Below are positions 39,791-44,478 of a stretch of DNA of 64,000 bases, piece by piece. Every line of letters begins with the position of its first letter. The stretch's first letter is position 1. Where the stretch lies: the NCBI RefSeq assembly GCF_014202755.1, contig NZ_JACHHK010000003.1, positions 186,001 through 250,000 on the forward strand, in the 5' to 3' direction. The translations under genes were made by a program, and so were the position numbers. The notes under the pieces were generated by a model. The model did no database searches, was not told the DNA's origin, and worked only from the letters and a program-made list of their open reading frames with translations. This DNA is from Catenisphaera adipataccumulans (GTDB taxonomy: Bacteria; Bacillota_I; Bacilli_A; Erysipelotrichales; Erysipelotrichaceae).

Positions 39791-40648
39791 ATGTATAAAA
39801 ATACCATCTGGATCACCGGCGCAGAAGGCCGTCTCGGAGCCGCTTTACAAAGCGTGCTCTCCCAAGATCGAAGCAATAAAGTCATTGCGACCGATCTTGA
39901 TGTCGATATCACGGATCAAAAGTCCATCCAATCCTACGCGGATCTTTACCGCCCCGATGTGATCATCAACTGCGCCGCTTTATCGGATGCCAGATACTGC
40001 GAAGACCATATGGTCGATGCGTTTAAGGTAAATGCCTTAGGCGCCCGCAACCTGGCGACCGCCAGCCGCCGCATGAACGCAAAGATCATCCAATTTTCCA
40101 CCGATGATGTCTTTTCCGGTTTTGAGCAGCATAAATGGATCGAATACGATATGCCGCATCCGGATACCGTCTACGGCAAATCCAAATATGCCGGCGAAAC
40201 ATATATCCGCGAACTGAATCCAAAGCACGTGATCGTGCGCAGTTCCTGGGTCTACGGCCACGGCAAAGATGACTATCTGCACTGGGTCCTGGACAAGGGC
40301 AGAAAAAATGAATCCTTTGAAGCCCCGGTCGACTGGATCAGTACACCGACCAGCAGCATCGAGCTGGCCAAAGTCATTCAAATTTTGATCAATACCAACG
40401 ATTATGGTTTGTACCATATCACGTGTGAAGGCACATGTTCCCGTCATGAGTATGCCCGTACAATTCTTTCCATGGCAGGCTATGATCCGACCCTGGCCAA
40501 AGGCAGTTTCCTGCCGAATAACCAGCCGCGTTCGACCTTGTTGGAGAATCTGATGCTGAAAATGACGAATCTTTACGAAATGCCGCATTGGCACGATGCA
40601 TTACAGTCTTACATGAATATGATCTTAAAGGAGGAACGCAATGGCTGA
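39791..40648 (+). CDS. RmlD-like NAD(P)-dependent sugar-nucleotide reductase/epimerase
   Basis: A 285-residue extended-SDR protein. The Rossmann glycine motif GAEGRLGAAL lies at residues 10-19, and the catalytic pattern is FSTDDVFSG followed by VYGKSKYAGE (YxxxK). The general form is that of dTDP-4-dehydrorhamnose reductase RmlD, but no other rhamnose genes are near, so that name may not apply. GAGGAG lies ten bases before the ATG at 39791; a GTG at 39779 is a less likely start. It overlaps the symporter gene by eight bases, so it belongs to its operon. Confidence 0.8.
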   Translation: MYKNTIWITGAEGRLGAALQSVLSQDRSNKVIATDLDVDITDQKSIQSYADLYRPDVIINCAALSDARYCEDHMVDAFKVNALGARNLATASRRMNAKIIQFSTDDVFSGFEQHKWIEYDMPHPDTVYGKSKYAGETYIRELNPKHVIVRSSWVYGHGKDDYLHWVLDKGRKNESFEAPVDWISTPTSSIELAKVIQILINTNDYGLYHITCEGTCSRHEYARTILSMAGYDPTLAKGSFLPNNQPRSTLLENLMLKMTNLYEMPHWHDALQSYMNMILKEERNG

Positions 40649-41927
40649 AAAAAGTAAAAAAATGTCCCTGACCACGAAAATTTTTATCAGCTTGCTGGTG
40701 GGTCTGGCAGTCGGTGTAATCTTTAACCTATGGGTGCCGAAAGGTTACATCCGCGATACGATCATCGTCGACGGCATCTGCTACGTGATCGGCAACGGCT
40801 TTATCCGGCTGATGCGTATGTTGGTCGTACCGCTGGTGTTCTTTTCACTGATCTGCGGTGCCGCCGCGATCGGCGATACAAAAACGCTGGGCAAGGTCGG
40901 CGGCAAGGTCATCCTGCTGTATATCTGCACCACCGCAGTAGCCGTCACCGTGGCTTTATCACTGGCTACCGTGATCAAGCCGGGCGTCGGGCTGGATATG
41001 TCTTCGATCGCAAAATCCGATGTATCGACAGCCAGCCAGACTTCGATGGTCGACACGATCTTGAATATCATTCCCGAAAACCCGTTTAACTCCCTGTCTG
41101 AAGGCACGATGCTGCAGGTCATCGTCTTTGCGCTGATCGTCGGCATCCTGCTGGCCAAGATGGGCGAACGGGCTGAACTGATTGCCAATTTCTGTACACA
41201 GTGCAACGATTTAATGATGGAAATGACCAATATGATCATGGGACTGGCTCCGCTGGGTGTCTTCTGCATGATCATGCGTACGTTTGCGAACTTAGGTTTC
41301 GATGCTTTTGTGCCGCTGCTGAAATACATCGGCAACGTCATTCTCGGACTGGGCATTCAATGTTTTGTTGTCTATATGATCATATTCTTTACCTTTACCC
41401 GTCTGAGTCCGATCAAATTTTTCCGGAAATTTTTCCCGGTCATGGCTTTTGCCTTTTCCACTTCGACATCCAATGCGACCATTCCGCTGAATATCGAAAC
41501 ATTGGAAGAAAAAATGGGTGTCTCCCGCCGGATCTCTTCTTTTACGATCCCGCTGGGTGCAACCATCAATATGGATGGAACCGCCATTATGCAAGGCGTT
41601 GCCGTCGTCTTTGCCGCACAGGCCTATGGGATGAATTTAGGTATCCAGGGCTATCTGACCGTTATTGCGACCGCCACACTGGCATCGATCGGTACCGCCG
41701 GCGTGCCGTCGGTCGGTTTGATCACGTTGACCATGGTCTTCTCCGCCGTCGGACTGCCGGTTGAAGCCATCACGTTGATCATGGGTGTTGACCGGATCCT
41801 GGATATGCTGCGGACCGCCGTCAATATCACCGGCGATGCTGTATGTACGTGTGTCGTTGCCTTCCAGAACGGCGATCTGAACAAGAAAGTGTTCAACGAC
41901 ATGAGTCTGGTGAAAAAAGATGTTTAG
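40641..41927 (+). CDS. DAACS-family dicarboxylate/amino-acid:cation symporter
   Basis: A 428-residue transporter of the glutamate/aspartate/dicarboxylate:cation symporter family. Landmarks are the serine-rich AFSTSTSNATIP hairpin (about residue 273), the GATINMDGTAIMQG motif and the AGVPSVGLITLTMV second hairpin. It has the eight-helix family topology with about 9 hydrophobic regions. GGAGG lies before the ATG. It overlaps the downstream lipoprotein receptor gene by eight bases. Substrate is an acidic or neutral amino acid or dicarboxylate, not resolvable here. Confidence 0.93.
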   Translation: MAEKSKKMSLTTKIFISLLVGLAVGVIFNLWVPKGYIRDTIIVDGICYVIGNGFIRLMRMLVVPLVFFSLICGAAAIGDTKTLGKVGGKVILLYICTTAVAVTVALSLATVIKPGVGLDMSSIAKSDVSTASQTSMVDTILNIIPENPFNSLSEGTMLQVIVFALIVGILLAKMGERAELIANFCTQCNDLMMEMTNMIMGLAPLGVFCMIMRTFANLGFDAFVPLLKYIGNVILGLGIQCFVVYMIIFFTFTRLSPIKFFRKFFPVMAFAFSTSTSNATIPLNIETLEEKMGVSRRISSFTIPLGATINMDGTAIMQGVAVVFAAQAYGMNLGIQGYLTVIATATLASIGTAGVPSVGLITLTMVFSAVGLPVEAITLIMGVDRILDMLRTAVNITGDAVCTCVVAFQNGDLNKKVFNDMSLVKKDV

Positions 41928-42753
41928 AAAACTCTTAGCCGGTCTGCTTTGTCTATGTTTGTTCTGCGGCTGTTCCGCTTCAACAACACAAACAAGCAAG
42001 CACGAAGAAAAAGAAAAAAAGACTTTCACCCTGCCGTCTGCTAAGATCATCGATGACATTCAGGAACGCGGTTATCTGATCGTCGGTGTAAAAACCGATG
42101 TTCCTGGACTGAGTGATTACGATGAAACAACGCAGACGTACAGCGGGGTCGAAATCGAATTGGCTTATAAAATTGCCGGGTTGATCTTTGACTGTTCCGC
42201 GAAAGAAGCCGAATCCAAAGGTTATGTCCATTTTGAGCCTGTTACGGTCGCAAATCGGGAAACCAAATTAAAGAACGGTGATATCGACTGCCTGATGGCC
42301 ACTTATACCATCACAGCGAGCCGTAAGAAAAAATTTGCGCTGTCAGAAAGTTATTATAAAGACTATATCGGTTTGATGGTTCGCAAGACCGAAACAGATA
42401 ATGAATCGCTGGGATCTTCCGGCATCCAAAGCCTGGCAGATCTGGACGGCAAGATCATCGGTACAGCAAAACATTCTACGGCCAGAAAGGCCACGCTGAA
42501 TTATATCAATAATCATGCCTCTTTATCGATTTCACCGATCTTCATGGAATACGATTCTTATGATGAATTGAAAGAAGCGCTGGTCAGCGGAGAAATCGAT
42601 GCGATGTGTGTCGATGTCAGTATTCTGGAAGGTTATGTTGATGATTCACTGACCATATTAAATGATCGGTATGCCCCGCAGGATTACGGTGCTGCCGTGC
42701 TGCCGAAAAACCGCGCATTGATCGAAGTCATCAATTATGCGATCGAAAATTAA
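41920..42753 (+). CDS. Extracellular solute-binding lipoprotein (amino-acid type)
   Basis: A 277-residue receptor of the SBP_bac_3 type. The lipobox LFCGC with lipidated Cys near residue 18 anchors it to the membrane. A linker of lysine/glutamate residues is followed by the bilobal domain GYLIVGVKTDVPGLS, VEIELAYKIAG, DCLMATYTITASR and GKIIGTAKHST. Such receptors normally serve polar-amino-acid ABC importers, but no ABC genes are here; instead it is translationally coupled to a DAACS symporter. Either it feeds that symporter or it works with an ABC system elsewhere. Confidence 0.88.
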   Translation: MFRKLLAGLLCLCLFCGCSASTTQTSKHEEKEKKTFTLPSAKIIDDIQERGYLIVGVKTDVPGLSDYDETTQTYSGVEIELAYKIAGLIFDCSAKEAESKGYVHFEPVTVANRETKLKNGDIDCLMATYTITASRKKKFALSESYYKDYIGLMVRKTETDNESLGSSGIQSLADLDGKIIGTAKHSTARKATLNYINNHASLSISPIFMEYDSYDELKEALVSGEIDAMCVDVSILEGYVDDSLTILNDRYAPQDYGAAVLPKNRALIEVINYAIEN

Positions 42754-42754
42754 A

Positions 42755-42782
42755 ACAGATGTTGAAAAACATCTGTTTTTTT
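42755..42782. terminator. Bidirectional terminator
   Basis: Stem ACAGATGTT/AACATCTGT (42755-42763, 42768-42776) with T7 on the plus strand. It ends the symporter operon and lies at the stop of the converging PhzF gene. Confidence 0.85.
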
Positions 42783-43563
42783 ATTGATCTTCAAGATGTA
42801 TGTCGGCTTCGGCATACAAAACAGCATGACCGCGCAGAATGGTACGCTCTCCTTCCTGCCGGCAGTAAAGTTCACCGCCGCGGGCCGAGGCCTGATAGGC
42901 CTTCAGTTCTTTTTTCTGCAGCTGATCTGCCCAATACGGAATCACATGGCAGTGGGCCCGGCCGCAGACCGGATCTTCTGCGACCCCGCATTTTGGCGCA
43001 AAAGAACGAGTCACACAGTCATATTGATCGCCCCGGGCGGTCACATTGAACGTGGTTCCATCCAGCTGCCGGATCACATCCAGATCCGGGATCACACGGC
43101 GGACTTCTGCTTCATCCTTCAGGACGCAGACCATATCTTCGCCTAGATAGGCCGCCTGCGGACAAATACCAATGGCCTGTACGATTTGATCTGTGACTTC
43201 AATCGGATGCATCGGAAAAGATGGAAGATCCATCGCAAATAGTTCTCCTTCCTGTTTGACCGTCAACACCCCGCTTTTCGTATGAAAACGGACTTCCGTT
43301 CGTTCCGGATCGAGAAAATGCAGGATCACGTAGGCAGAAGCCAGCGTCGCATGTCCGCACAGATCAATTTCCCCGCCCGGTGTAAACCAGCGCAGCTGAT
43401 AGTCCTCTCCCTGCAGCAGCGCAAACGCAGTTTCTGATAAGTTGTTTTCAATGGCCATCTTCTGCATCAGATCATCGGACAGTTCATGATCCAGGATACA
43501 GATGGCAGCCGGATTGCCGCTGAACACATGCTTCGTGAACGCATCGACAATATATTGTTTCAT
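42781..43563 (-). CDS. PhzF-family isomerase/epimerase-like protein
   Basis: A 260-residue protein of the PhzF/YddE fold, two similar halves. Motifs are DAFTKHVFSGNPAAI, NLSETAF with the catalytic Glu (about residue 45), WFTPGGEIDLCGHATL in the first half and CGRAHCHVIPYWA in the second. No phenazine genes are present, and most such proteins in Bacillota have no known substrate. GAGGAAGAAA precedes the ATG at 43563. Confidence 0.88.
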   Translation of the reverse strand: MKQYIVDAFTKHVFSGNPAAICILDHELSDDLMQKMAIENNLSETAFALLQGEDYQLRWFTPGGEIDLCGHATLASAYVILHFLDPERTEVRFHTKSGVLTVKQEGELFAMDLPSFPMHPIEVTDQIVQAIGICPQAAYLGEDMVCVLKDEAEVRRVIPDLDVIRQLDGTTFNVTARGDQYDCVTRSFAPKCGVAEDPVCGRAHCHVIPYWADQLQKKELKAYQASARGGELYCRQEGERTILRGHAVLYAEADIHLEDQ

Positions 43564-43647: not shown

Positions 43648-44478
43648 ATGTCAGACCACAATAAACAAAAAAAGATCGCCGTCATCAATGATTTTACCGG
43701 CTTCGGCCGCTGCTCGCTGACCGTTGAGATCCCGATCATTTCAGCGATGCACGTGCAGTGCTGTCCGATCCCGACCTCGGTCCTTTCCAATCATACCGCC
43801 TACGATCGTTATTTCCTGCAGGATATGACCGATTCGATGGAACCGTACATCGAAGAATGGAAGCTGCTGGACCTGCAGTTTTCGGGTATTGCCACCGGTT
43901 ACTTAAGTTCACTGCGCCAATTTACGATCACGGAACAATTCATCGATGATTTCAAAAGGAAAGATACCATCGTGGAAGTGGACCCAGTCATGGCCGACGG
44001 CGGTCAGTTTTACGACAGTTATTCGCCGGAAATGTGCCAGGCCATGAGACATTTGCTGACCAAGGCCGACTTGATCACACCGAATCTGACCGAAGCCTGT
44101 TTCCTGACCGATACGCCGTATCATACAGGCAGCTGGCGCATCAAAGAACTGCATCAGCTGACCGAAAAACTGCACCGTTTTGGACCGGAAAAAATTGTGA
44201 TCACTGGTATTCCGCAGGGACAGTTTGTCGCCAACATCTGTTCCTATGATGACATTTTTAAAGTGGTTCGTTCCCATCGGATCGGGATCTCCCGCTCCGG
44301 GACCGGCGATGTCTTCGCCAGTATATTAATTGCGGATGCCGTGCGCGGTATTGATTTTGAATCCTCCGTCCGCAAAGCAGCCCGCTTTTTGAAACGCTGT
44401 CTGATCCGTTCGGACGAATTGGGGATCCCCAAGGAAGACGGTGTCTGTTTCGAGGAATTTTTGACCAAATTAAAATAG
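43648..44478 (+). CDS. Pyridoxal/pyridoxamine kinase (PdxY type)
   Basis: A 276-residue ribokinase-superfamily kinase that phosphorylates pyridoxal, pyridoxine or pyridoxamine in B6 salvage. It has VINDFTGFGRC, CCPIPTSVLSNHT, VDPVMADGG with the metal/ATP region and the C-terminal SGTGDVFASIL anion-hole motif with catalytic Asp (about residue 220). It lacks a ribosome binding site. It is isolated between the PhzF gene and a small cysteine-rich gene. Confidence 0.92.
   Translation: MSDHNKQKKIAVINDFTGFGRCSLTVEIPIISAMHVQCCPIPTSVLSNHTAYDRYFLQDMTDSMEPYIEEWKLLDLQFSGIATGYLSSLRQFTITEQFIDDFKRKDTIVEVDPVMADGGQFYDSYSPEMCQAMRHLLTKADLITPNLTEACFLTDTPYHTGSWRIKELHQLTEKLHRFGPEKIVITGIPQGQFVANICSYDDIFKVVRSHRIGISRSGTGDVFASILIADAVRGIDFESSVRKAARFLKRCLIRSDELGIPKEDGVCFEEFLTKLK

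Follow-up and report, generated by a model that had tools for sequence, protein, structure and literature searches.

The operon described here probably specifies a system for the secondary transport of acidic amino acids, in which a binding lipoprotein (SBP) would serve a symporter of the DAACS family. It occupies positions 39791-42753 of the window, the whole stretch of 64,000 nucleotides of Catenisphaera adipataccumulans DNA that was analyzed. Open reading frame calls in the window place three genes there, all on the + strand, with an 8-bp overlap at each of the two junctions (Table 1); the eight-base overlaps and the coordinates given for the operon in an earlier note on this DNA proved exact. 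The arrangement is real and, by comparison of sequences, conserved; it is a promising candidate for another class of secondary transport helped by an SBP.

Table 1. Features of the three-gene operon, in positions of the window.
Feature	Position	Strand	Basis
RmlD-type SDR (extended NAD(P)-dependent reductase), 285 aa	39791..40648	+	Pfam RmlD_sub_bind E 4e-64
DAACS / SDF symporter (SLC1-GltPh family), predicted acidic-amino-acid type, 428 aa	40641..41927	+	Pfam SDF E 3e-129
SBP_bac_3 lipoprotein, Peb1A-like, predicted Asp/Glu type, 277 aa, usual C-terminal segment absent	41920..42753	+	Pfam SBP_bac_3 E 1e-15
SDR/DAACS overlap, 8 bp	40641..40648	+	ORF coordinates
DAACS/SBP overlap, 8 bp, ATGTTTAG	41920..41927	+	equal overlap length in 7 other loci
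Intrinsic terminator closing the operon, 12-bp stem and T-run	42752..42779	+	stem-loop

The ATG was favored as the start of the SDR gene because of a GAGGAG Shine-Dalgarno-like stretch, an alternative GTG 12 bp upstream being possible. No Rfam match was found near the operon. Directly downstream lies a convergent gene for a PhzF-like isomerase/epimerase (window 42781-43563, - strand), followed by a pyridoxal/phosphomethylpyrimidine kinase-type gene (window 43648-44478, + strand), and neither was conserved beside the operon in the relatives checked.

The lipoprotein scores 58 bits against the PF00497 cut-off of 26.4, and its lipobox cysteine, residue 18, is conserved across all aligned homologues. 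An AlphaFold2 model of the protein (mean pLDDT 90.4) shows a two-lobe fold, the best PDB match of which is 2v25 (E 7e-25, TM 0.87 by target length), an entry for the aspartate and glutamate receptor Peb1A with aspartate bound; Peb1A is the closest solved relative of the SBP by both sequence and fold. Among 38 aligned SBPs from both SBP groups, R113, T128, R135 and D232 never vary and K58 hardly does; these positions align with Peb1A, R113 and K58 being what we take to be the equivalents of the side-chain-carboxylate contacts of Peb1A. The symporter carries an SDF domain (PF00375, TC 2.A.23) scoring 432 bits against a curated cut-off of 27.9, and its best solved relatives are the aspartate transporter 9bgy (5e-106) and then GltTk and GltPh. 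All members examined of the DAACS subfamily (60/60) keep the NMDGT motif and the equivalents of GltPh D394, R397, N401 and D405, along with those of N310-M311-D312 and T314. In GltPh, R397 and D394, and also N401, set the specificity for acidic amino acids (PMC12668577). Because Peb1A-type residues are found in the SBP and GltPh-type residues in the symporter, both parts are predicted to handle aspartate or glutamate.

The association between the two genes was traced in a tree of 105 SBPs, a quick version with support by SH-aLRT only, in which 22 DAACS-linked and three unlinked proteins form one clade of 25 (SH-aLRT 100). The members of this clade come from gut Bacillota, and its nearest outgroup consists of ABC-linked Peb1A-like SBPs from Lachnospiraceae. 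The SBP gene lies directly downstream of DAACS in 22 of the 25 members, and all 25 genomes with a clade SBP have the carrier: it is adjacent in those 22, split by contig ends in one, where the SBP (L057) starts at a contig edge and the DAACS gene is cut by another contig end, and located elsewhere in the genome, paired with RmlD, in two (L067, L068). ABC linkage was found for none of the 25 clade members, against 73 ABC-linked relatives. Distances among the SBPs correlate with those among their DAACS partners (r=0.94, n=22, permutation p=0.0002) and three subgroups are identical in the two trees, with the caveat that correlated trees can arise from co-inherited neighbors even without contact. 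Since 163 of 171 locus pairs are without any common flanking homologue, the linkage survives many genomic contexts, and passive inheritance of a neighborhood is unlikely. The DAACS-SBP pair was recovered in 23 distinct loci, a recurrence beyond chance; eight of these, including the window, share the 8-bp DAACS-SBP overlap while their flanking genes differ.

The two kinds of SBP also differ at the C-terminus. Between 22 and 37 residues (median 24) follow the equivalent of Tyr256 in intact DAACS-linked SBPs, as opposed to at least 37 in 73/73 ABC-linked SBPs, and a C-terminal segment of the form DG(T/S)-xx-L-xx-K(W) is present in all 73 of the latter and in none of the intact DAACS-linked proteins. 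The absence of this segment fits a release from an ABC-type constraint. In Eubacterium plexicaudatum ASF492 (L072:7001-7900; G342:C1:68917-69731) the SBP gene is found in two overlapping frames, reflecting a frameshift or a sequencing error, and RmlD and DAACS are intact there.

The distribution of the three genes makes the SBP look like a later addition to part of an older RmlD-DAACS core. The DAACS subfamily (63-71% identity) was found in 13 of 60 related genomes, the window's own included; in these same-order genomes the SDR gene is directly upstream in 12 of 13 and the SBP gene downstream in three, leaving ten without an adjacent SBP. The subfamily was likewise found in 37 of 348 Lachnospiraceae genomes, and the 30 loci inspected from that set comprise 28 with the SDR, three with the SBP and 27 with no SBP alongside. 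In the collection scan for the SBP, a single-sequence query returned no relative and an alignment of three sequences did, its 24 closest loci belonging mostly to Lachnospiraceae gut or rumen MAGs. Among these loci the gene order is RmlD-DAACS-SBP wherever the contig allows, except in L066 and L069, where no SDR was found, and in L067 and L068, where the SBP stands alone; nearly all of the next-best matches lie inside ABC operons. A class-wide search of 296 genomes (E<=1e-25) yielded the window's own SBP as its sole match, so the SBP system is rare in the class sample. Separately, two further SBP_bac_3 proteins from Lachnospiraceae genomes (L154, L155) have, by the query used, neither a permease nor an ATPase of an amino-acid ABC importer as neighbor.

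Because most close DAACS relatives have no SBP, the SBP is read as an add-on and not as an obligate subunit. One such relative (L158; G410:C25:7928-9175) encodes a DAACS 76% identical to that of the window, with RmlD upstream and no SBP downstream, and is a natural SBP-free control, the SBP having probably been lost; given SBP-free relatives of this kind, the carrier is evidently able to work alone. A comparison of SBP-bearing and SBP-free DAACS proteins was also made, using an AlphaFold2 model of middling confidence (pLDDT 72) that served for helix boundaries only. Contrast sites 127, 131, 329, 343, 364 and 368, among others, lean to the outer face, and sites 201, 289, 408 and 412 do not. In this comparison a clean docking surface on DAACS was not found, as contrast sites occupy both faces. 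In a rough count with helix boundaries taken from the AlphaFold2 model, the outer face holds a fraction of the top contrast sites that is not clearly greater than the fraction of the protein that this face makes up.

By gene neighborhood, the SDR is part of the older and wider RmlD-DAACS core: it goes with the symporter whether or not the SBP is present. Its GxxGxxG motif and residues S103, Y128 and K132 are conserved in 57/57 operon homologues, marking it as an active-looking reductase, and it scores 218.2 bits with TIGR01214, just under the equivalog cut-off of 224.05 for dTDP-4-dehydrorhamnose reductase. It is not the sole RmlD-like gene of the genome, since a second one (L192) lies amid glycosyltransferase-like genes. 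Nothing was found in support of the suggestion in the earlier note that the SDR may act on the imported solute, and the RmlD-DAACS pair exists without the SBP.

In the mechanism that we propose, the lipid-anchored SBP would capture L-Asp or L-Glu on the outer side of the membrane and then pass the ligand to the outward-facing symporter, which would import it with Na+ (or H+) by elevator movement; the SBP would thereby raise the affinity or capture rate of the carrier. The SBP itself may descend from the Peb1-like SBP of an ABC importer; on this view it took a new partner, shed its C-terminal segment and was added to an RmlD-DAACS operon that already existed. Since most related carriers have no SBP, it is probably an enhancer, that is, an affinity-raising part that is not strictly required. 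The idea that the lipoprotein feeds the DAACS symporter, put forward from the window alone, thus draws strong comparative support from clade linkage, co-inheritance, C-terminal loss, binding-site residues and the lack of an orphan ABC importer, whereas an obligate, TRAP-like subunit is at odds with the ten of 13 same-order genomes and 27 of 30 Lachnospiraceae loci that lack an adjacent SBP.

Other explanations of the operon were weighed against this mechanism. The lipoprotein might capture or sense acidic amino acids beside the symporter without any handover, its role being that of a sensor, of a buffer outside the cell or of an allosteric regulator, much as mycobacterial GlnH acts via GlnX and PknG. 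Aspartate-specific SBPs that serve purely as sensors do exist (PMC6069109), and the symporter mostly occurs without an SBP; however, the operon holds no gene for a sensor kinase, a GlnX-like protein or a chemoreceptor, and the conserved partner is always the carrier, with translational overlap in eight loci, so that we regard a role without handover as unlikely. Alternatively, the lipoprotein could be an ordinary SBP whose ABC permease has its gene elsewhere, and it would sit beside the symporter only because acidic-amino-acid uptake is co-regulated. PAAT ABC importers are the normal partners of SBP_bac_3 proteins and the sister clade is ABC-linked. The earlier note had stated that the operon comes without ABC genes; the window has no amino-acid ABC permease, and the four in the 2.0 Mb assembly map elsewhere, each with an SBP and an ATPase of its own alongside. 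There is hence no orphan amino-acid ABC importer for the lipoprotein, which weakens the case for an ordinary ABC SBP. The lack of ABC-linked clade members, the absence of the C-terminal segment that 73/73 ABC-linked SBPs retain and the presence of the carrier in every clade genome also argue against it, and we consider it distinctly improbable.

Least probable in our judgment is an operon centered on the RmlD-type SDR, in which an unusual solute, such as a sugar acid or an amino-sugar derivative, would be imported for this enzyme and the acidic-amino-acid reading would be wrong. Such an arrangement would agree with RmlD-DAACS being the most widespread pair and the oldest one (12/13 and 28/30 loci) and with the catalytic residues kept in the SDR, but not with the Asp/Glu determinants in the symporter and SBP sites, nor with the persistence of DAACS-SBP in G055 and L069, where the SDR is missing. 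Nucleotide-linked sugars made in the cytosol are the normal substrates of RmlD-family enzymes, which also counts against this reading.

SBPs were long believed to be exclusive to ABC, TRAP and TTT systems, and DAACS is the best-studied elevator family, including GltPh and the human EAATs. A single carrier subfamily that occurs with and without an SBP would make the effect of a receptor on a known mechanism directly measurable. In the open-access literature searched, the only SBP-assisted secondary systems were TRAP, TTT and the proposed TAXI-GltS, and no report of a DAACS-SBP pair was found. The TAXI-GltS pair BP0403/BP0402 of Bordetella pertussis was proposed in 2025, from gene context, as a case of SBP-assisted secondary transport (PMC12344293). 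The claim in the earlier note of a new type of receptor-assisted transport is therefore best restated as a candidate further class, and not as the first beyond TRAP and TTT. The same publication leaves DAACS unmentioned, asks why other secondary carriers are without SBPs, suggests the elevator mechanism as an enabling feature and points out that further classes would let this idea be tested (PMC12344293). On the present comparisons it is about an even call whether the operon adds one more class to the SBP-dependent secondary transporters, and the first with the SLC1/GltPh fold; in it, an ABC-derived Peb1A-type receptor would deliver Asp/Glu to DAACS in gut Bacillota.

The operon resembles an SBP-assisted secondary system in that its SBP gene has been inherited together with a secondary carrier instead of an ABC importer. 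It shares with TAXI-GltS a lipoprotein SBP, here of predicted acidic-amino-acid type, a gene overlap with an elevator-type glutamate symporter and the lack of ABC or TRAP membrane genes. The two nonetheless pair different families, TAXI-GltS combining a TAXI-family SBP with a GltS carrier (ESS, 2.A.27) and the present operon an SBP_bac_3/Peb1A-type SBP with DAACS (2.A.23, SLC1 fold); the operon further includes an RmlD-type SDR, the C-terminus of its SBP is short, and fusions of DAACS with the SBP were not seen. With 29 bits against the TAXI model cut-off of 84, the SBP falls outside that family, and the operon belongs to neither TAXI-GltS nor TRAP. TRAP systems (DctPQM, SiaPQM) likewise combine an SBP with an ion-driven elevator-type carrier for anionic solutes, but their SBP (DctP/TAXI) and membrane (DctM/DASS-like) families are unrelated to those found here, and their SBP is required, whereas most carriers related to the present one have none. 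Peb1A-type ABC importers (PAAT, acidic amino acids) have in common with the operon the SBP family, fold and Asp/Glu site residues, and provide the nearest sister clade; the present SBP differs from theirs in having no ATPase or permease linkage, a lost C-terminal segment and a symporter as partner. GltPh, GltTk and E. coli GltP (DAACS, 2.A.23) share the symporter family, the NMDGT motif and the Asp/Glu site residues, but the studied members work without an SBP, while the present carrier is co-encoded and co-inherited with one. The operon would thus follow the same logic as TRAP, TTT and TAXI-GltS, applied to an SLC1-type carrier and with both protein families differing from those of TAXI-GltS.
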